From Candidatus Coprenecus pullistercoris (GTDB lineage Bacteria > Bacteroidota > Bacteroidia > Bacteroidales > UBA932): a stretch of DNA of 33,990 nucleotides. This document shows, one piece after another, positions 16,540-33,990 of the stretch. Position numbers and translations under genes: made by a program. The notes under the pieces are model-generated. The model did no database searches. It was not told the DNA's origin and saw nothing but the letters and a program-made list of their open reading frames with translations. The stretch's first letter is position 1. Every line of letters begins with the position of its first letter. The stretch covers positions 1-33,990 of the forward strand of contig DXAT01000033.1 in NCBI GenBank assembly GCA_019116965.1. Reading direction: 5' to 3'.

Positions 16540-17402
16540 TGCTTGTCTGTTTTTGGTTCTTCCGCGGGAGCGGCTGCCGGCTTGGGAGGGAAATTGACGG
16601 CGTGAATGGCTCCGGTCGGACACTCGGCCACACACTTGCGGCAGAGCTTGCATTTGTTGAAATCTATATAGGCCAGATTGTTCTCCACCGTAATGGCCCC
16701 GAAAGGACATACCTTTGCGCATTTGCCGCAGCCGATGCAGGCTGCGGTGCAGGCCTTCCTGGCCACACCGCCCTTGTCCTTGTTGACACAGGATACATAT
16801 ACCCTGCGGTTCTTCGGCCCCTTGTTGCGGAGCTCTATGACTCCTTTAGGGCAGGCCCTGACACATGCACCGCAGGCAGTGCATTTCTCCTCGTCCACTT
16901 CCGGGATGAGAGTCTCCGGATTGACCCTGATGGCTCCGAACTGGCAGGCACGCTCACAGTCACCGCCTCCAAGACATCCGTAACGGCAGCCTGTGTCGCC
17001 GCTGTAGAGCGAACTGATTATCCGGCATGAGACCGAGCCGTCATACTCATTGGTCCTTACTCTGTTCTGACATGTGCCGTTGCATCTGACAACGGCCACC
17101 ATGGGCGCCTTCTCCTCCACCTGTACCCCCATGGCCGAGGCCACTTTCTGCATGACGGAATTACCTCCGACGGGACAGAACTTGCCCTCAAGGGACTTGG
17201 ACTTGACACAGGCCTCGGCGAAAGCCCTGCAGCCTGCGAAACCGCATCCTCCGCAGTTGGCACCGGGCATCACTGACTCCACGACATCGATGAGCGGATC
17301 CTCCTCGACATTGAACTTTTTAGCCACGGCAAACAGCACCACGGCAAGCAGCAGTCCGAGTACGCTGAGGACGACAACCGTAAAAACAAAAGTAGTACCC
17401 AT
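16536..17402 (-). CDS. rnfB: Rnf complex subunit B (ferredoxin-like, multiple Fe-S clusters)
   Basis: Entry point for electrons from ferredoxin; 288 residues. Seen: one N-terminal membrane helix (4-27), the four-Cys cluster domain with Cys50, Cys53, Cys58 and Cys76 (CGGCGFAGC...C), and a Cys-rich array including CTACGACVRACP, CIGCGKCAKVCP and CKLCRKCVAECP. It is the long form of RnfB with extra 4Fe-4S sites. The C-terminus is a short Pro/Ala-rich tail. First rnf gene, six bases after the RseC gene; the downstream rnfC start overlaps its stop. Confidence 0.97.
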   Translation of the reverse strand: MGTTFVFTVVVLSVLGLLLAVVLFAVAKKFNVEEDPLIDVVESVMPGANCGGCGFAGCRAFAEACVKSKSLEGKFCPVGGNSVMQKVASAMGVQVEEKAPMVAVVRCNGTCQNRVRTNEYDGSVSCRIISSLYSGDTGCRYGCLGGGDCERACQFGAIRVNPETLIPEVDEEKCTACGACVRACPKGVIELRNKGPKNRRVYVSCVNKDKGGVARKACTAACIGCGKCAKVCPFGAITVENNLAYIDFNKCKLCRKCVAECPTGAIHAVNFPPKPAAAPAEEPKTDKQ

Positions 17403-23309: not shown

Positions 23310-24266
23310 TTAGTCCAGTGATTGTCCTGTATTGGCTGCGTACATGAGCAGCTCGGCATAGCTGTCGGTGTCCAGCTCGGCGTTGAAGAAGCACAAGGGG
23401 TCAAGCTGCCTGCCGTCACGAAGCACTTCGTAATGAAGATGAGGAGCGAATGAAGTACCCGAGTTGCCGCTGCGCCCTATCACATCACCGCGCGACACCT
23501 GCTGTCCCTTGCGCACAAGCACATCGGACAGATGGGCATACACCGTCTCGTATCCGTTGCCGTGGTCCACCACGATCCTGGTTCCCTGCAGTTTCATGGC
23601 CCTCTCCACGGACTTGACCGTACCGTCGGCCGTAGTCCTCACCTCCACTCCTGCAGGAGCCACGAGGTCGAGGCCGCCGTGAAAGACCACCTCCTTGTAG
23701 AAAGGATGCATCTTGCGTCCCAAGGACGCCCCCACATTGCCCAGCGGGAAATCCGCGATAGGCATTATGGACGGTATCCTCCTAAGCATATCCGGATCCG
23801 TCTCCGAAAGTGAATCAGCCACGGCGCCTATCAGCATCGAGCACAGGTCGAACTCCCTTCCGAGCCTGAACGCCGCAAGATAAGTCATATCCACCAGCTG
23901 AGGCACGCATGCCGTATCCGACAGGGCCTGCATGAGAGAGGTATCGGCAAACGAGATGTCAGGAAAATTGGTGTTGAAAAGCTCGCGGTAAATGGCCTCG
24001 TCCTTCACCTCCAGGCCCCCGACCACATTTTCCAGAAGGGTCACCTGTCCGGACAAGGCATCGTACTCCCTTTCTATCAGGCGCCGTTCGGATATCATCC
24101 GGCGTTCCTCCTCACTTGAGAAAAAAAGTGTGAATACCAGATAGTACAGAACCACCAGAGCAAGCGTGTAAGCGACGAATTTCAGCACACGGAGCACATG
24201 ATACATCGCCGGGTGCCTGTCCTCGACGAAATCAAGCAATTCCTTATCGTACTTCAGGCGTCCCAT
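23310..24266 (-). CDS. Membrane-anchored M23 peptidase (second of a tandem pair)
   Basis: 318 residues. A single N-terminal membrane helix (about 27-49) leads to a short coiled coil (51-75) and a C-terminal LytM/M23 domain (about 205-300). Zinc and catalytic residues are all present: HGGLDLVAPAG (His and Asp), YAHLSD, and PHLHYEV. Predicted cell-wall endopeptidase facing the periplasm, cutting peptide crosslinks in peptidoglycan. The ATG overlaps the stop of the M23 gene before it (TGATG), so the two are translationally coupled and may work as a pair. Confidence 0.92.
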   Translation of the reverse strand: MGRLKYDKELLDFVEDRHPAMYHVLRVLKFVAYTLALVVLYYLVFTLFFSSEEERRMISERRLIEREYDALSGQVTLLENVVGGLEVKDEAIYRELFNTNFPDISFADTSLMQALSDTACVPQLVDMTYLAAFRLGREFDLCSMLIGAVADSLSETDPDMLRRIPSIMPIADFPLGNVGASLGRKMHPFYKEVVFHGGLDLVAPAGVEVRTTADGTVKSVERAMKLQGTRIVVDHGNGYETVYAHLSDVLVRKGQQVSRGDVIGRSGNSGTSFAPHLHYEVLRDGRQLDPLCFFNAELDTDSYAELLMYAANTGQSLD

Positions 24267-25261
24267 CAGCTCATCGGCTTCTCATTGGAGGAACTGATGA
24301 TAGCGGCATAGTCCTCCGGCAGTATGTCCTTATTGTAATAATTGACCGGATTGACATGATTCCCCATATAGATTACCTCATAATGAAGATGCGTTCCTGT
24401 TGAGCGTCCGGTGTTGCCCATAAGGGCTATCTGCTGCCCGCGCTGCACATCCTGTCCCTCATGCACGAGAGCCTCCCTCAGATGTGCATAGCGTGTCTTG
24501 TATCCGAATCCATGATCCACCAGCACATATCTTCCATAACCTCCGGCGTCATAGCCGACCTTCTCCACCACACCGTTGCCCGTGACATATATCGGCTCAC
24601 CCTGCTGTCCGGATTTGGGAGCAAGGTCCACTCCCTGATGACGGCGGTACATGTTCCTGTGTATCGGGTCGACCCGCACGCCGAAACCGGAAGCCTGACG
24701 CACATTGGCATAATTGACAGGAGGTATGGTAGGAGCGCACAAAGCCATCTCGGCGGCTCTCGCGGAGACCGCTGCCACCTGGTCGAAGGACTTTGACTGT
24801 ACATAGGCCTTCTTCAGGAGCATGTCGGAACGCATCACGGCACCGGTAAGCGAGCCGGTATAGTCCCTCTCCCTGAGAGAGGCATACCTGTCCACTCCTC
24901 CGTAACCGGCACTGCGTATGTCATCAGGAATAACCTCCATGCCGAACACAGAACGGTAAAGCGAATTGTCCCTGCGCTCCATGTCCTCAAGAGCCATTGC
25001 GGAGGCCTCGATCTTCCGCTCGAGCAGATCCAGCTTCGAATGCCACTCCCTGTAGCTTTTCTCCACGATAAGCTCCCTCGGAGTCCTGCCATGGAATACA
25101 TCCGTAACAAGATAGAGCGAGAGTACGAACACCGAGACGCTTGACAGAGCATACAATATGGCCGTACGCACATACCTTCTCACAGTCGAAGGCTGTTCAA
25201 CCACATCATAATCAAGTGTCTCCGGGTTCAACACATATTGCCTGTCTGTTTTCTTGCGCAT
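24266..25261 (-). CDS. Membrane-anchored M23 peptidase (first of a tandem pair)
   Basis: 331 residues. N-terminal membrane helix (about 31-52), coiled coil (68-95) and a C-terminal M23 domain with HQGVDLAPKSG, RYAHLRE and GTHLHYEVIYMGNHVNP; all metal and catalytic residues intact. Family members cut peptidoglycan crosslinks and often act in cell elongation or division. The start is ATG 25261: the longer frame begins at a TTG that lies inside the promoter -7 element. An AGGAGGAG stretch lies 10-15 bases before the ATG, an uncommonly good Shine-Dalgarno match for this group. First gene of the long minus-strand run. Confidence 0.93.
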   Translation of the reverse strand: MRKKTDRQYVLNPETLDYDVVEQPSTVRRYVRTAILYALSSVSVFVLSLYLVTDVFHGRTPRELIVEKSYREWHSKLDLLERKIEASAMALEDMERRDNSLYRSVFGMEVIPDDIRSAGYGGVDRYASLRERDYTGSLTGAVMRSDMLLKKAYVQSKSFDQVAAVSARAAEMALCAPTIPPVNYANVRQASGFGVRVDPIHRNMYRRHQGVDLAPKSGQQGEPIYVTGNGVVEKVGYDAGGYGRYVLVDHGFGYKTRYAHLREALVHEGQDVQRGQQIALMGNTGRSTGTHLHYEVIYMGNHVNPVNYYNKDILPEDYAAIISSSNEKPMS

Positions 25262-25291
25262 ATTCCGTACTTCTCCTCCTAAATTAATGGG

Positions 25292-25324
25292 CAAAAATAC
25301 AAAAAATCCTTTTCAGCGGTCAAA
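25292..25324 (-). promoter_or_regulatory. Strong predicted promoter of the M23-to-rnf gene run
   Basis: On the minus strand TTTG (25324-25321), 21 bases of spacer, then TATTTTTG (25299-25292). Both the -33 and -7 elements of Bacteroidota promoters are matched at proper spacing, the best promoter in the window. The leader to ATG 25261 would be about 25 bases. No other clear promoter is seen until the end of the run at 12115. Confidence 0.8.
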
Positions 25325-26447: not shown

Positions 26448-27398
26448 TTATGTTCTGTGGTTCTTACGCCACAACTGCCAGGAATTGAAGAGATTCTGCC
26501 AGATCGCGTAGGTTCCGGGCGCAAGGGAGGATATCGGATTGAGATATGTATAGGCCATCCATATGGCCAGGACACTGTTCTTCTGTCCCAAAGCCTGGCC
26601 GGCCGTAATGTTGTCGCCATAAGCTCTGCCTGTACGCTTCCCGAACCAGAACTGAACGATGCAGGTCATCAGTGCTGCCCCGGCAATAAGCCACAGTACG
26701 AGAGACGGAGCGGTACTGTTGTGCATGGAGCGGACGGTCTGTCCGATAGCGAGCGCGAGAGCAACAGCCCAGAGATAGAATGCGATGCCCGCGCGGGCCT
26801 TGAAGAAATCATGTGCCTTGGGCCAGAGATAACGGAGCAGCAGGGCCAGCAGGAACGGACATATCAGCAGCGGGAATACCTTGGACAGTATCTTCAGAAA
26901 GGCAGGCAGGAACCCCAGCTCTGAATGTACTTCGATCAACGGAAAGACAACCGGCACAAATACTGCCGCTAAAATATTGGACATCAGGTTGTAAACAGTA
27001 ATCCGCGCAGCGCTGCCCCCGAGCTTGTCCGTAACCACGGCCGCCGCAGTAGCCGTCGGGCAGATAAGGCACACCATGGCCCCTTCGAATATCTCACGGT
27101 AAACCTCGTCCATGGGCACGAAGATGAGTACCGAGGCGACGGCCAGAGACGACAGCAGCTGAAACAGCAGCACGATCCAGTGCCAGCGCGTAAGGCGGAA
27201 ATCCTTCAGGTCGACTTTACAGAAAGTAAGGAAGAGCTGGATGAAAATCAGTGACGGGGTCAGGACATCCACGGCGACCCATACAGCAGGCTTAAGCGGA
27301 GCGAGAAAGCCGGCATAATGAAATACGAAATAGCCCATGGCCCCGGCGGCCATGGCTATCGGCAAAGTCCAGTCCCTGAGAATCTGTCTTACCGTCAT
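26448..27398 (-). CDS. BASS-family (bile acid:sodium symporter-like) transporter
   Basis: 316 residues with about nine to ten membrane helices in the bile acid:sodium symporter fold. Seen: the conserved CPTATAAAVVTDKLGG in the mid-protein and the C-terminal signature TAGQALGQKNSVLAIWMAYTYLNP. BASS proteins carry organic anions, including bile acids, pyruvate and ketopantoate, with Na+. The start overlaps the thiN stop by four bases (ATGA), so the two are translationally coupled. This makes thiamin or a precursor a candidate substrate, but a bile acid or other anion cannot be ruled out from sequence. Confidence 0.88.
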   Translation of the reverse strand: MTVRQILRDWTLPIAMAAGAMGYFVFHYAGFLAPLKPAVWVAVDVLTPSLIFIQLFLTFCKVDLKDFRLTRWHWIVLLFQLLSSLAVASVLIFVPMDEVYREIFEGAMVCLICPTATAAAVVTDKLGGSAARITVYNLMSNILAAVFVPVVFPLIEVHSELGFLPAFLKILSKVFPLLICPFLLALLLRYLWPKAHDFFKARAGIAFYLWAVALALAIGQTVRSMHNSTAPSLVLWLIAGAALMTCIVQFWFGKRTGRAYGDNITAGQALGQKNSVLAIWMAYTYLNPISSLAPGTYAIWQNLFNSWQLWRKNHRT

Positions 27399-28099
27399 AG
27401 CTTCTCTACATTCAGCTGCCCGTCCATAAATCCAGGCAGATATGCCAGTACTTTCGCCGGATGGCTAAGACGCAGCTCGACGGATGTCGAGGATGTGCGG
27501 TTGAGGGTAGCCTTCCACCACATGTCGAAACGCACTTCTGAAGTAGGATACTCCAGACCGGAGCTGTCAATCCTAAGCTCAGGGTCGAATGCGAAAAGCG
27601 ACAGCGGCTGGCCCACGGGGAGACCGAGCCGGCACGAATCGAGCAGGGGCACGAACACCCCGTAGTCAGTAACCATGGAAAGAGAGCCTCTTGCTCCGAG
27701 AGCGTCAAGATAAAAGGCAAAATCCGCCAGCAGGGATATATTGCCGAGCGTATGGTCCTCCCGCTTGCCGGTAGCTCCGAATACCGTAATGGAAAATTCG
27801 GGCAAGGCCGTTCCGCGTCCCACCCGCAGCATCGAGCATATCCAGCGGAAAGCCTTGGAGAGATCGTTGCTCTCCTGCTCCCCCACAGGAAATATCTGGT
27901 CGGAAAGTTCCTGACGGAGAGTCTCCGGCAGCGAGTCCATATCCCCGACCACAAACTCCGGTTTGCGGAAACGCATGAAAGACCCGGCAGCTCCGTCGCA
28001 GCAGACAACCACATCGCAGGACAGCAGACGGTCCCTCACATCGGCATTTTCAGGGAAATCCCCGTCGCACAGAATAGCATAAGAGACAGCCGGTCTCAT
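27395..28099 (-). CDS. thiN: Thiamin pyrophosphokinase
   Basis: Transfers pyrophosphate from ATP to thiamin to make TPP. 234 residues. Seen: CCDGAAGSFM at 33-42, VVGDMDSLPE at 50-59, the catalytic/nucleotide segment SNDLSKA at 77-83 and GATGKREDHTLGN at 108-120. A C-terminal beta-sandwich thiamin-binding region follows. The start ATG 28099 overlaps the fmt stop (ATGA); an upstream in-frame extension would run inside fmt. It is far from the thi operon and lacks a TPP riboswitch. ThiE makes thiamin phosphate whereas this enzyme needs free thiamin, so a phosphatase or ThiL elsewhere is required for the de novo route. Confidence 0.93.
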   Translation of the reverse strand: MRPAVSYAILCDGDFPENADVRDRLLSCDVVVCCDGAAGSFMRFRKPEFVVGDMDSLPETLRQELSDQIFPVGEQESNDLSKAFRWICSMLRVGRGTALPEFSITVFGATGKREDHTLGNISLLADFAFYLDALGARGSLSMVTDYGVFVPLLDSCRLGLPVGQPLSLFAFDPELRIDSSGLEYPTSEVRFDMWWKATLNRTSSTSVELRLSHPAKVLAYLPGFMDGQLNVEKL

Positions 28100-29100
28100 C
28101 CCCGGGCGCCCCTCCAGCCGGCGAGGAAACTGCGCACATCCATCCGTTTCTTGGCAGGAGCCTGAAGCTCCGTGACAGACAGTATACCGGTCCCGCAACG
28201 GACATGGATATACGAGCGGTGGTCAGTAAAGACCGTTCCAGGAGCAGCTGCTGCCTGTTCCTCCGTAGCTTCGGCTACGGACGCCGCATATATCTTCAGT
28301 TCCACCTCCTGACCGTCCATGACGATGGTTCCGTGAGCTCCGGGTTTGGGAGAAAGCCCGCGCACAAGGTTGTGAAGACTCTCCGCATTCCCGCTCCAGT
28401 CCAAGAGGCCTGTCTCACGGCTGAGCTTCGGTGCGATCATCCGCTCAGGAGCCAGAGAACCGCTGTCCTGAGCCTTCGGCTCCGCACTTCCGGACGCAAG
28501 AGCATCTACGGTCTTGAGCACCAAGGCGGAACCCGCCTTCATCAGCCTGCCATAAAGACTGCCGAAATCCTCATCAGGAAGGATATCCACCTCCTGCTGG
28601 AACAACACCGCGCCGGTGTCCATGTGCTCGTCAAGAAGAAATGTCGTAACTCCGGTCCTGGTCTCACCGTTGATTATGGCCCAGTTTATAGGAGCCGCGC
28701 CGCGGTACGCGGGAAGCAGCGACGCATGCAGATTGAATGTCCCCATAGGAGGCATGGACCACACTGCTTTGGGCAGCATCCTGAAGGCCACTACCACGAA
28801 CAGATCCGCCTCCAGGGCACGCAGTTCCCCGAGAAAGCCGGGGTCCTTCAGAGATTCGGGCTGAAGCAGGGGGAGAGAATGGACCAGAGCGTAGTCCTTT
28901 ACCGGACTTGTGCCGGTCTTCTGTCCGCGTCCTGTCTTTCGGTCGGGGACGGTCACCACTCCCACGATGTTGTATCCTCCGTCCACAAGTGCGCTCAAAG
29001 AACCCACCGCGAACTCGGGAGTACCCATGAACACTATTCTCAGCTTCCGGTTCCTGCTGAGGCTTCCGTCAGTAGTTCCGGTCTCATGTTTCTTTCTCAT
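28096..29100 (-). other. fmt: Alternative separate fmt reading from internal ATG
   Basis: ATG 29100 (Met475 of the fusion) begins MRKKHETG and gives a 334-residue Fmt, close to family length. The stretch around it reads CAATGAG. With one base fewer in the six-T run at 29118-29113, the permease frame would stop at the TGA overlapping this ATG, exactly the ATGA junction seen at several other gene borders in this window. Confidence 0.5.
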
Positions 29101-30522
29101 TGACAGTCTTGCAAAAAATTTCTTAACAGGCAACAGATATGTCTCGATATTGAATATCGAGGAATCCTTAGTGGACTTCCAGGTAAGGAACACTCCGATA
29201 GGCAGGAGCACCAGCGAGGAAATGAATGCGCCCAGCTCCGGGGATATGACTCCGTCTCTCGCCAGCTTCTTTCCCGAGATGTCCACCACCCAGTACAGGA
29301 CGAAGAACAGTGCGGACACTATCACAGGCGTACCCAGACCTCCTTTACGGATAATAGCCCCCAAAGGTGCGCCTATGAAGAAAAATATGAAGCAGGCGAA
29401 GGAGAGCGTGAACTTCCTGAGGTACTCCAGATCTATCCTCCTGAGGTAATATGTATACTGGTTCACTTCCCTATGGTAGCTCTGCATCGTCTGAATGGCT
29501 TTCTGCACCGATGATATGGCCTGGTCCACGGCATCCAGTTCTCTCTGCGCGTCAGACCAGGACAGAGTATCCAGTGGGAAAACGCTGTCAAGCCCCTTGT
29601 TCTTGGCCGTATCCAGCTGCGAAGCCTTGTCTATGTACAGGTCGTACGCCACCTCCTTTCTCTGCTTCATGGACACATCCTGATACAGAGAACCGAGCGA
29701 GTCCCGGTCATGGGAGAGCTGCTCCAAGTTACGGGCCATGATCTCGTTGCCGTAGCGGTCCTCCTCGGACTTCTGGAAAGCATAGTTCTCCAAGGCAATC
29801 ACTATCTCCTGCATGTCGAAATCCACCTGCTGAAGAGTGTAGGAGGTATCAACGCTGTTCCTCACATTGTTCTCCTCGTATGAGACACCATGATACAGAG
29901 TGAACACCAGCGCCTTCTTGTCCGGCGTAGAACGGATCATGCCTGAGTCAGCCACAGCCAGGGATATATTGCCCTTGTTCTGGGTATGGTTATAGACCAT
30001 GACATCGTACATCATGCCTGTCTCCTTGTTGCTGGAGTTGACCCTCAGCGAATACCCGTCGATGCCGTTGTAGAAAGTTCCGGTAGGTATCTTGATCTCG
30101 TCCTTGGTCCTGGATATATCGTACTGGAGCGTATATATCTTGTTGTATGCCAAGGGTATCAGGTTGTTGGAGACAAAAAACGCAGCCACGCTGATGGCAA
30201 AAGCCACGAATATCAGCGGCAAGAAGATTCTCTGAAGAGAGATACCCGCGGCCTTCATGGCCAGCAGCTCGTTGTTCTCTCCCAGGTTGCCGAAGGTCAT
30301 GATGGAGGCCAGCAGAGTGGCCAGCGGCATGGAGAGCGGCAGAATCGTCGCCGAGCCCCAGCCGAGGAACTCCATGATAACCCAGAAACTCAGACCCTTT
30401 CCCACCAGTTCGTCGATGTACAGCCACAGGAACTGCATCACCAGTATGAACACGGTGATGAAGAATGTCATCACGAACGGTCCTAAAAAGGACTTCAATA
30501 TGAAAAGGTCGAGTCTCTTCAT
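28096..30522 (-). CDS. fmt: LptF/LptG-type permease fused to methionyl-tRNA formyltransferase
   Basis: One uninterrupted 808-residue frame. Residues 1-474 form an LptF/LptG (YjgP/YjgQ) permease: helices about 10-40, 47-77 and 97-125, a periplasmic domain 126-365, then helices 371-391, 398-416 and 425-447. It is complete, ending near IFNIETYLLPVKKFF. In Gram-negatives this permease extracts LPS from the inner membrane with LptB. Residues 492-808 form a complete Fmt: RIVFMGTPEFAVGSL at 495-509, catalytic Asn597 and His599 (FNLHASLLP), Asp635 (HMDTG), and the C-terminal OB-like domain. Fmt formylates initiator Met-tRNA in the cytoplasm. The linker (475-491) begins with Met475. Such a fusion is not one I know. 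A six-T run just before Met475 makes a homopolymer indel plausible. Confidence 0.85.
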   Translation of the reverse strand: MKRLDLFILKSFLGPFVMTFFITVFILVMQFLWLYIDELVGKGLSFWVIMEFLGWGSATILPLSMPLATLLASIMTFGNLGENNELLAMKAAGISLQRIFLPLIFVAFAISVAAFFVSNNLIPLAYNKIYTLQYDISRTKDEIKIPTGTFYNGIDGYSLRVNSSNKETGMMYDVMVYNHTQNKGNISLAVADSGMIRSTPDKKALVFTLYHGVSYEENNVRNSVDTSYTLQQVDFDMQEIVIALENYAFQKSEEDRYGNEIMARNLEQLSHDRDSLGSLYQDVSMKQRKEVAYDLYIDKASQLDTAKNKGLDSVFPLDTLSWSDAQRELDAVDQAISSVQKAIQTMQSYHREVNQYTYYLRRIDLEYLRKFTLSFACFIFFFIGAPLGAIIRKGGLGTPVIVSALFFVLYWVVDISGKKLARDGVISPELGAFISSLVLLPIGVFLTWKSTKDSSIFNIETYLLPVKKFFARLSMRKKHETGTTDGSLSRNRKLRIVFMGTPEFAVGSLSALVDGGYNIVGVVTVPDRKTGRGQKTGTSPVKDYALVHSLPLLQPESLKDPGFLGELRALEADLFVVVAFRMLPKAVWSMPPMGTFNLHASLLPAYRGAAPINWAIINGETRTGVTTFLLDEHMDTGAVLFQQEVDILPDEDFGSLYGRLMKAGSALVLKTVDALASGSAEPKAQDSGSLAPERMIAPKLSRETGLLDWSGNAESLHNLVRGLSPKPGAHGTIVMDGQEVELKIYAASVAEATEEQAAAAPGTVFTDHRSYIHVRCGTGILSVTELQAPAKKRMDVRSFLAGWRGARG

Positions 30523-30542: not shown

Positions 30543-33170
30543 TCAGCTTATCTTATTGACGGATTCGCTCATCGCCGTCAGGGCCGCCATCAGTCCGTCA
30601 GGATCCTTGCCGCCTGCGGTAGCTAAGAAGGGCTGACCGCCTCCGCCTCCCTTGATATGGACAGCAGCGGCTTTCACATCCTTGCCTGCATGAGCTCCGG
30701 CGGACACCAAATCATCCGTATACATCATCAGCAGCGAGGGCTTGCGGTCAGGGGTCATAAAGGCAGCGACCATTGCGGCGCGTGTATTCTCCTTACGCAG
30801 CTCAAAGGCTACTTCCTTGACTATTTCGGGCGAATATACTCCAGTCAGGGAGAACAGACGAACTCCGGAAGGCGTCATTCCGCTCTTTTCCGTCAGTGAC
30901 TTCCTGAGGGCAGCAGCTCTCTCCCGGGCCACCTCCTCGAGAGAATGACGGAATGATTCATTCTCGGCCACGAGTTTCTTGATACCGGTGATGACATCCG
31001 GTGTATTCTCAAGGAAAGAGCGCACAGCGTTGATCTGGTCCTCTACTCCGTCGAAAAGATCTTCTACATAACTGCCGGTGACAGCCTGTATCCTGCGGAC
31101 TCCTGCCGCCACGGCCGACTCAGAGACTATCTTGAGCATACCGATACGGCCGGTCGAGGAAGTGTGGGTTCCTCCGCAGAGCTCCACCGAGTCTCCGAAA
31201 CGGATTACGCGCACCTTGTCACCGTATTTCTCTCCGAAAAGGGCCATCGCACCCATGCCCTTCGCCTCGGCTATGGGCATGTCCCGGAACTCCTGTCGGG
31301 GATAGTCCTCGCGTATAAGACGGTTGACCATCCTCTCCACCTCGCGCAGTTTCTCAGCGGATATCTTCTCATAGTGCGAGAAGTCAAAGCGGAAATAGGA
31401 TGGACACACATAGGAGCCTTTCTGCTCGATATGCGTTCCCAGCACAGCCCTCAGGGCCTGGTGCAGCAAGTGGGTGGCCGAATGGTTGTTGGCCGTCTCC
31501 TGCCGTTTCTGAGCGTCCACACAGGCGTGGAACACCGCCTCCGGCTCCGAAGGAATCCTGTCCGCGATATGTATGCTGAGATTATTCTCCTTGATAGTGT
31601 TGAGTACAAGCGTCTTTTCACCTGAGGGAGAGACTATGGTTCCGCAGTCTCCGACCTGTCCGCCGCTCTCGGCATAGAAGGGGGTATGGTCAAACACCAG
31701 CTGGTAGACCTCCTTGCCCTTGGTCTTGACGGTACGGTACTTGACGATGCGCACATCTGCCTCCAGAGTGTCGTAACCTACGAAAGAGTGCTCCTCTGTC
31801 CCGTCCAGCACCACCCAGTCTCCGGCCTCCACAGCGGCGGCATTGCGGGCCCTGGCCTTCTGCTTTCCGAGCTCGGCCTCGAATTCCTCCAGGTCGATGG
31901 TATACCCGTTTTCCCTGGCAATCAGTTCACTCAGGTCAATCGGGAAGCCGAATGTATCATAAAGTACAAATGCATCCTTGCCGGAGATGCGCTTGGTATC
32001 GGCACAGCGTTCCATCACCGTATTGATGAGCCCTATACCTTTGGCCAGAGTGCGCAGAAAAGCCTCCTCCTCCTCGCGGATGACCTTCTCGATGAGCGTC
32101 TGCTGTCGGCAGAGCTCGGGATAGGCGTCTCCCATGACATCCACCAGCACCGGCACCAGACGGCACAGGAAAGGCTCGGTGAATCCCAGGAAGGTATAAC
32201 CGTAACGGACTGCCCTGCGCAGGATGCGCCGGATGACATAACCGGCCTTGACATTGGAAGGCAACTGACCGTCCGCAATCGAGAACGAGATGGCCCTGAT
32301 ATGGTCGGCCACCACCCTCATAGCCACATCCACCTGCTCCGACTCCGCACCGTACCTGTGTCCCGACAATTCTCCGATACGGGAGATTATGTCCTGGAAC
32401 ATGTCGCCGTCGTAATTGCTCTTGTTGCCGTTGACAGCCATGACAAGACGCTCGAAGCCCATGCCTGTATCCACATGCCTGTGAGGCAGAAGCTCCAAAG
32501 AGCCGTCGGCCTTGCGGTTGTACTGGATGAAAACCAGGTTCCATATCTCGATGACCAGTGGATCGCTCTTGTTGACCAGTTCCCGGCCGGGTACGGCCTG
32601 CCTGTCCCTATCGTCCCTGAGATCGATGTGTATCTCGCTGCACGGGCCGCAGGGACCCGTATCGCCCATCTCCCAGAAATTGTCCTTCTTGTTGCCGTAG
32701 AGGATACGGTCCTCGGGCAGATACTGCTTCCATATCTCCAGAGCCTCGGAGTCAGGGCCCAGGCCGTCCTTGTCATATCCCTCGAACACAGTTGCGTAAA
32801 GACGCTCCTTATCCAACTTGTACACCTCGGTGAGAAGTTCCCATGCCCATGCAATCGCCTCTTCCTTGAAATAATCCCCGAAACTCCAGTTGCCGAGCAT
32901 CTCGAACATCGTATGATGGTAAGAGTCATGGCCCACTTCCTCCAGGTCATTGTGCTTGCCGCTCACTCTGAGACACTTCTGACTGTCCGCCACACGGGGA
33001 TACAGTATGGGGGAATTGCCCAGGAACCAGTCCTTGAACTGATTCATCCCGGCATTGGTGAACATAAGCGTAGGATCTCCCTTCACGACCATAGGCGCGG
33101 AGGGAACTATCTTGTGACCCTTCGAGGCGAAGAAGTCCAGGAACTGCTGTCTAATCTCTTTTGAAGTCAT
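30543..33170 (-). CDS. alaS: Alanyl-tRNA synthetase
   Basis: Charges tRNA-Ala and edits mischarged Ser and Gly. 875 residues, the usual length. Seen: class II catalytic core with [40 protein letters not shown] and [12 protein letters not shown]; the editing-domain zinc site HSATH (His563, His567) and CGGTH (Cys665, His669); and a C-terminal domain ending in the Gly-rich [18 protein letters not shown]. The start is ATG 33170 ([14 protein letters not shown]), which matches family starts; the longer frame begins at a TTG inside the promoter -7 element. It lies between two LptF/LptG genes, 20 bases before the permease-fmt frame. Confidence 0.97.
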
Positions 33171-33197
33171 ATTAACAAACGGATCATTTGTAATTTG

Positions 33198-33205
33198 CAA
33201 ATATA
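33198..33205 (-). promoter_or_regulatory. Predicted alaS promoter -7 element
   Basis: TATATTTG on the minus strand, an exact TAnnTTTG match, 27 bases before ATG 33170. It lies in the AT-rich gap after the LptF/LptG stop. No -33 element is seen. Confidence 0.65.
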
Positions 33206-33209
33206 TATA

Positions 33210-33990
33210 TTATTTCGGTGCCATACGGTAAAGTACCGCCGCAATCACCGCATACAGTATGTTAGGCAGCCACAGAGCCAGCCATGGCGGCAAAGTATCG
33301 GTAATCACGAACATCTGACTGAAACGCAGGAAAAGGATGTAGGAAAAACTCAAGGCTATACCCACTCCAAGATTGAGGCCTATGCCGCCGCGCCTCTTCT
33401 TGGAGGAAAGAGACACGCCTATGAGAGTCAGGATAAATGCCGAGAACGGTACTGCGAAACGGGTATGCTTCTCTATGAGAGAGTATTTGACCATACTGTC
33501 CCCTCTCATTCTCTGCATGTCTATAAGCTCCTGCAGCTCATCATAATTGAGAGTCTCGACAGTATTCTCCCTCCTGTAGAAATCATCTATATTGAGATTG
33601 ATCACCGTATCGAGCTGCTTGCCGAAAGTTATCCTCTGCTGCGACGTCGTATAGTCCCTCAGGGTATAGTTCTTAAGCCGCCATCCTCCGGTCGTGGAAT
33701 CCCAGGCCGCGCTCTCGGCCGAGAGCTTTGATACCAGATGGCTCTCCCTTGTGCTTTCCAGGGTAAACTTATATGCCGTATTGTTCCACGTACTGAATGA
33801 CTCCACGTAGACAAATTCACCGGGAGCTATCTGGTAATGGATATTGCGGTTGGTATTGTAGAATTTCTGTCCTTTTATATACTGTTCCTCGAAGGCCAGT
33901 CTTTTCTTATTGGCATTGGGTATTACGAATAGATTGAGAGACAGACTCATCATCGCTATCAACAGAGCGGAAATGAAATACGGGTACATC
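33210..33990 (-). CDS. LptF/LptG-family permease, N-terminus cut by window edge
   Basis: About 260 codons; the frame runs off the window end, so the true start lies beyond it. Seen: a membrane helix at the start of the visible part (PYFISALLIAMMSLSLNLFVIPNANKK), the periplasmic beta domain (about 25-165), and three C-terminal helices (from RFAVPFSAFILTLIGVSL onward), with the cytoplasmic-loop residues KKRRGGIGLNLGVG typical of LptF/LptG. It is the second such permease in the cluster, so together with the permease of 28096-30522 it may form the LptF-LptG pair that exports LPS. Which is LptF and which LptG I cannot say. Confidence 0.9.
   Translation of the reverse strand, partial: MYPYFISALLIAMMSLSLNLFVIPNANKKRLAFEEQYIKGQKFYNTNRNIHYQIAPGEFVYVESFSTWNNTAYKFTLESTRESHLVSKLSAESAAWDSTTGGWRLKNYTLRDYTTSQQRITFGKQLDTVINLNIDDFYRRENTVETLNYDELQELIDMQRMRGDSMVKYSLIEKHTRFAVPFSAFILTLIGVSLSSKKRRGGIGLNLGVGIALSFSYILFLRFSQMFVITDTLPPWLALWLPNILYAVIAAVLYRMAPK

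Follow-up and report, generated by a model that had tools for sequence, protein, structure and literature searches.

A gene fusion of an LptF/LptG-family permease with methionyl-tRNA formyltransferase in uncultured Bacteroidales

Methionyl-tRNA formyltransferase (Fmt) is generally regarded as a soluble, unattached enzyme available to all of the cell's ribosomes. The E. coli enzyme (1FMT; tRNA complex 2FMT) is of this kind, and comprises two Pfam domains, an Asn/His/Asp set at residues 108, 110 and 146 that we take to be catalytic, and a loop with Arg42, presumably a residue of the tRNA-recognition loop. A related formyltransferase domain occurs in the bifunctional formyltransferase/decarboxylase ArnA, which acts in lipid A modification and in which the domain is likewise fused to another protein. 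Absence of Fmt from another bacterium is reported in one study (PMC4378268).

The other half of the protein described here belongs with the permeases of the LPS exporter LptB2FG, which are represented, for example, by the LptF chain of 6MIT. In a study of these proteins (PMC5082905), a coupling-helix consensus with a conserved Glu and a conserved Gly is described for LptF and LptG, and the helix, which lies between TM2 and TM3, is cytoplasmic. Genes for such a permease and for Fmt occur as unfused neighbours, in the same order as in the fusion, in members of the bacterial family studied here and, among the matches listed for named genome contigs, in some Alistipes and Odoribacter bins. The paired genes often overlap or share a frame. 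In the unfused state lptF ends at a stop codon and fmt nearly always has a start codon of its own (40 of 41 loci). In the literature searched, whose coverage leaves out most subscription papers, we found no description of an lptF-fmt fusion.

The window that we analysed is a stretch of 33,990 nt that makes up the entire contig DXAT01000033.1 (C28) of Candidatus Coprenecus pullistercoris, a member of the family UBA932 in the Bacteroidales. The source assembly is of the metagenome type, comprises 1.97 Mb in 91 contigs and is 91.7% complete. On the reverse strand, an open frame of 808 codons (Table 1) encodes a complete LptF/LptG-family permease followed, after a short basic linker, by a complete Fmt. 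Each Pfam match scores above its curated cut-off: LptF_LptG spans residues 8-449, Formyl_trans_N spans 495-670 and Formyl_trans_C spans 699-802. A preliminary description of this DNA had claimed a complete permease and a complete Fmt in one frame, and the 808 open codons with both sets of domains bear this out. We conclude from the sequence that the gene is very probably a genuine fusion, in which a long LptF/LptG-type permease and the sole detected Fmt would be translated straight through the junction.

Table 1. Positions of the fused gene, its parts and its neighbours in the window.
Feature	Position	Strand	Basis or remark
Fused lptF-fmt gene, 808 codons + stop	28096..30522	(-)	Open frame, ATG to stop; Pfam
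LptF/LptG-family permease module, residues 1-455	29158..30522	(-)	PF03739 at 8-449, 251.8 bits; high-confidence fold in model
LptB coupling-helix consensus, residues 80-93 (Leu80, Glu85, Gly93)	30244..30285	(-)	Consensus as given in PMC5082905
Basic linker, residues 456-493	29044..29157	(-)	Predicted helix 460-480; low confidence 454-459, 475-489
Sole in-frame linker ATG, residue 475	29098..29100	(-)	Candidate internal start, not conserved
Methionyl-tRNA formyltransferase module, residues 494-808	28099..29043	(-)	TIGR00460, PF00551, PF02911
Arg532	28927..28929	(-)	Opposite E. coli Fmt Arg42
Presumed catalytic residues Asn597, His599, Asp635	28618..28734	(-)	Opposite E. coli Fmt 108, 110, 146 (1fmt)
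alaS, upstream neighbour, unfused	30543..33200	(-)	Stop 20 nt before permease ATG
Thiamin pyrophosphokinase gene (tpk), downstream, overlaps fusion, unfused	27395..28198	(-)	True start uncertain
Second LptF/LptG-family permease, cut by contig end	33210..33989	(-)	PF03739, 146.1 bits

The permease half covers nearly the whole of PF03739 (profile positions 3-353 of 353), and its solved relatives by sequence include the LptF of 6MIT (E 9.5e-9). It scores below the cut-offs of both the LptF equivalog TIGR04407 (145.9 versus 230) and the LptG equivalog TIGR04408 (107.8 versus 240), and we therefore assign it to the LptF/LptG family of permeases without further specification. The full-length PF03739 match and the coupling-helix consensus for LptB are common to the fusion and to LptF and LptG. 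Within this consensus, Glu85 and Gly93 are invariant across 21 fused proteins from nine genera, and LptB itself is present in the genome (365.9 bits versus a cut-off of 240). Besides its subthreshold equivalog scores, the fused permease differs from those of LptB2FG in its greater length, its extra helices and its Fmt extension. The extra helices (residues 266-294 and 325-355, approximately positions 29458-29727) follow the beta-rich part and precede the last membrane helices, and they make the permease longer than solved LptF chains of about 366 residues.

The second permease gene of the window, which is cut by the contig end, likely encodes the partner subunit of the fused permease; in relatives, the fusion is found together with one second permease gene, of about 370 residues. 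Another copy of this partner gene, together with the start of alaS, lies at the end of a different contig of the source assembly (G000:C14, approximately positions 43353-44586; L002) and has 82% DNA identity to window positions 32659-33893 over 1243 aligned bases. Other members of the genus have a single locus of this type, and the source bin may therefore combine contigs from two related species.

The formyltransferase half has in common with E. coli Fmt both Pfam domains, the fold, the Asn/His/Asp set and the arginine loop; the difference is that it forms the C-terminal part of a membrane permease. Asn597, His599 and Asp635, whose spacing the preliminary description had judged correct, do align with their E. 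coli counterparts in an ungapped stretch (1fmt). These three residues and Arg532 are invariant in the 21 fused proteins from nine genera, and 21 of 21 match the three Pfam families. With the key residues kept, both halves look functional as far as can be judged from their sequences. The fusion is the only PF02911 gene that a profile search detected in the source genome. One other PF00551 match is present there, in a separate frame of 226 residues that, judged by its size, could be PurN. Across the family, 199 genomes were searched for PF02911: 16 gave no match, and 181 of the 183 with a match contain exactly one such gene, the exceptions being G121 and G166. The latter genome (genus g19; listed contamination 3%) has two full-scoring PF02911 genes, on contigs C253 and C378.

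A model of the fused protein produced with AlphaFold2 from a 79-row alignment (mean pLDDT 88.5) contains two confident modules. Residues 454-459 and 475-489 have pLDDT values below 50, with a helix at 460-480 between, and at a pTM of 0.55 the relative placing of the two modules is not fixed by the model. In the permease module, the beta-rich part gives way to three helical stretches of membrane length. The closest solved structures to the Fmt half are those of Fmt, both by sequence and by fold (Foldseek, including the tRNA complex 2FMT); no permease structure is among the best 50 Foldseek matches listed. Given the cytoplasmic coupling helix between TM2 and TM3 and the three membrane-length stretches after the beta-rich part of the model, the C-terminus of the fused permease should be cytoplasmic. 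It would follow from this topology that formylation is tethered to the exporter at its cytoplasmic face.

The preliminary description had proposed a search of the same genus for the 808-residue form, or for a stop codon between the two domains. Of the 19 genomes of the genus, 18 have an open junction, each giving a single match that extends from residue 1 to residue 805-808. The remaining one (G005, 81% complete) matches neither PF03739 nor PF02911, and no stop separating the domains was seen in the genus. The stop flags for G017, G012, G018 and G014 mark the normal terminal stop of the fused gene, as reading of these loci established. The interpretation offered in the preliminary description is supported in part. 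The fusion is real, conserved and built as it was described; tethering at the membrane would follow from the topology, and a functional link between formylation and LPS export is rather doubtful. The fusion is also far from limited to the source genome.

Nearly all of the genomes compared are metagenome assemblies. In a sample of 398 genomes from the family, at least 144 carry the fusion, in 9 of 25 genera (g1, g2, g3, g5, g14, g15, g16, g22 and g23). The family matches listed number 150 by hand count and all span both halves; 144 are fused, a lower bound for which some loci were read as DNA and the rest taken from an automatic no-stop call, and six, all from g4, have a stop at the junction. 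Junction stops within the family thus occur in other genera, where they represent the unfused state. Real stops between adjacent genes were found in the six g4 rows, in G132, G143 and G163, and in G072, a genome of another family in which a stop separates lptF from an adjacent, in-frame fmt. Among the matches listed for named genome contigs, 23 of 80 kept loci are fused, including one from Candidatus Cryptobacteroides faecigallinarum, a genus that NCBI places in the Bacteroidales; one named-contig locus, L153, is a probable duplicate of L005.

No open fusion was found outside the family in a sample of 393 genomes from the order, where nine genomes pass a limit of E 1e-130, three of them from outside the family. 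In a sample of 395 genomes from the phylum, the source genome alone passes E 1e-110. Both limits are strict, and both sets are samples rather than a census. Among 343 matching plasmid records, none has a single place that covers 80% of the query. Fission of the gene was considered for g22 genomes with two matches and was rejected, as G266, G345, G390, G411 and G426 keep a piece that crosses the junction; G351 and G415, the latter without the junction, are uninformative.

The split loci of relatives bear on the origin of the fusion. In 42 such loci, the end of lptF falls within an interval that reaches from 77 nt ahead of the codon corresponding to residue 494 to 10 nt past it; the exception is L107, where the gap exceeds 1.2 kb. 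The two genes lie in one frame with a stop between them in six loci from g4, three from g13 and L102, and a single stop located 18 to 24 nt ahead of the Fmt domain is found in L049 and L059-L063 (g4) and in L064, L065 and L067 (g13). This in-frame state with a single stop could be one mutation away from fusion.

We built a tree of 81 loci, comprising 41 split loci and 40 of 84 fused loci that were chosen by hand to span the genera. Five state changes are needed on this tree, at least three of which are forced by starred branches. The tree was made from the fused genes themselves by a quick method, and these counts cannot separate gain from loss. A single clade of 39 fused loci is rejected (p-AU 0.0018), the constraint leaving aside L066 (g23), which nests among split loci. 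Both states are present in g2 and in g23. A survey of DNA and matches revealed no clear split inside the large fused genera among the genomes that could be judged; one g22 genome and one g1 genome without a match, and G415 without the junction, were set aside as unjudged. The fusion probably arose more than once. Because gain is mutationally simpler than loss and no clear split is seen in the large fused genera, several gains are the likelier reading of the state changes.

The region between the two halves was compared in 84 fused loci read in detail, a set that includes the window and five loci cut by contig ends and omits three further window extracts, L080 (short Fmt part) and L079. Locus L079 (G426:C128, near position 17010; g22) is a fused gene whose permease half contains a frame break, which reflects either a sequencing error or a decayed gene, and it was left out of the tree and the counts. 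By our own definition of the linker, the 84 linkers range from 21 to 40 codons, and all are basic (net charge at least 2, mean 6.4). Pooled dN/dS over 14 close, non-independent pairs is 0.205 for the linker, compared with 0.142 in the permease half and 0.126 in the Fmt half. The linker value indicates that this region is translated; a mere C-terminal tail on the permease would also be expected to show such constraint.

Among split relatives, the start of Fmt usually lies 2 to 7 codons ahead of its first strand. An ATG is present in the stretch from -9 to 0 in 35 of 41 split loci versus 29 of 84 fused loci (Fisher p = 6e-8, with relatedness of the loci ignored). When GTG and TTG are also accepted, the counts become 40 of 41 versus 40 of 84, which leaves one split locus and 44 fused loci with no start codon there. 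Fused genera differ in this respect: none of 13 loci from g14 has a start codon in the stretch, and g22, with an ATG in 22 of its 31 loci, supplies 22 of the 29. The window has no start codon in this stretch, and its one ATG lies 19 codons ahead of the first Fmt strand. Since 44 of 84 fused loci lack a start codon where split relatives begin Fmt, many fused species could hardly make a free Fmt; internal initiation is possible in other fused species, notably those of g22.

The fusion lies within a tight array, alaS-lptF-fmt-tpk, and the flanking junctions provide a control. Among 61 fused loci with flanks, including one probable duplicate, 59 have an identified alaS gene, at distances from lptF that range from a 4 nt overlap to 204 nt, and it is unfused in 59 of 59. 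The tpk gene is on the same strand in 47 of the 61 loci (within 120 nt in 46), and is unfused in 47 of 47; it lies on the other strand in one locus and was not found in 13. As the tight alaS-lptF and fmt-tpk junctions stay unfused, fusion is not simply the fate of every tight junction here, although two neighbouring junctions are a small control. Elsewhere in the window, adjacent same-strand genes at 23310-24266 and 24266-25294 each encode a Peptidase_M23 domain.

Two readings would change what the gene encodes. In a window taken from a metagenome-type assembly of 91 contigs, an open frame might be due to a sequencing or assembly error that lost a stop codon. However, 18 of the 19 genomes in the genus have an open junction, and a chance or mis-assembled frame is therefore excluded; with at least 144 of 398 family genomes and 23 of 80 listed named-contig loci also open, and several different linkers among them, we assign such an error a practically negligible probability. 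The formyltransferase half might instead act on an LPS-related sugar, as ArnA does, and not on Met-tRNA. The ArnA domain is related, and a link with LPS export would make sense, but the half exceeds the cut-off of the Fmt equivalog TIGR00460 (248.3 bits versus 201.5, NCBIfam) and reaches only 144.5 of the 777 set for the ArnA model; on these scores we reject an ArnA-like sugar formyltransferase. ArnA also differs in partner domain and substrate, and Pfam finds no decarboxylase domain in the fusion. With Fmt the closest solved relative by sequence and fold, the tRNA-loop arginine kept and the sole PF02911 gene of the genome residing in the fusion, action on a sugar is very improbable.

Two further readings accept the fused gene and concern the form in which its product works and the reason for which it was kept. 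The working enzyme could be a free Fmt that arises through internal initiation in the linker or through cleavage of the fusion. The start-region ATG codons present in 29 of the 84 fused loci, and within g22 in 22 of 31, the ATG at residue 475 of the window and the low-confidence, probably flexible residues 475-489 are consistent with this reading. Against it stand the 44 loci with no ATG, GTG or TTG in the stretch, the complete lack of start codons there in g14 and the position of the linker ATG, which varies even inside the genus of the window, and we consider a free working enzyme unlikely. Alternatively, the fusion may be kept because it links the site or the amount of formylation, and hence of translation initiation, to the LPS exporter. 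Selection at the lptF-fmt junction, with the sole Fmt anchored to the exporter and translation initiation thereby coupled to envelope building, would be why this junction fused repeatedly and has not been seen to split again while other junctions of the array stay separate. The three or more state changes at this junction, the equally tight but unfused alaS-lptF (59) and fmt-tpk (47) junctions in the 61 fused loci, and the lack of any clear reversion to separate genes in the fused genera that were read are in keeping with such coupling. However, no regulatory link is known, the control is small, linker length and sequence vary between lineages, and close-packed genes with a missing start codon would hold the fusion in place without any benefit. 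We therefore regard functional coupling as a rather doubtful reason for the persistence of the fusion, and selection at the junction as equally doubtful. A near-neutral ratchet, in which easy fusion is followed by loss of the Fmt start, is likelier.

The explanation that we favour is a genuine fusion translated through its junction. Together with LptB and the partner permease, the fused permease would reside in the inner membrane, and its C-terminus would leave the last membrane helix on the cytoplasmic side, as the topology suggests. The basic helix and flexible linker would keep the Fmt domain at the inner membrane face, where it would formylate initiator Met-tRNA. Since the two genes lie end to end and often overlap or share a frame with one stop between them, a small mutation would have sufficed to join them, probably repeatedly, and later loss of the Fmt start codon would have made the joined state hard to reverse. 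Mutual regulation of LPS export and formylation is no part of this explanation.

Annotation may label fusions of this kind by one half only. A group of uncultured gut Bacteroidales appears to keep its sole Fmt on an inner-membrane transporter, and in some of the fused species no start codon is left for a free copy of the enzyme. If the protein is made as encoded, these bacteria would test the need for a diffusing enzyme in formylation, and would constitute a repeated natural gene-fusion experiment for which unfused relatives are available.
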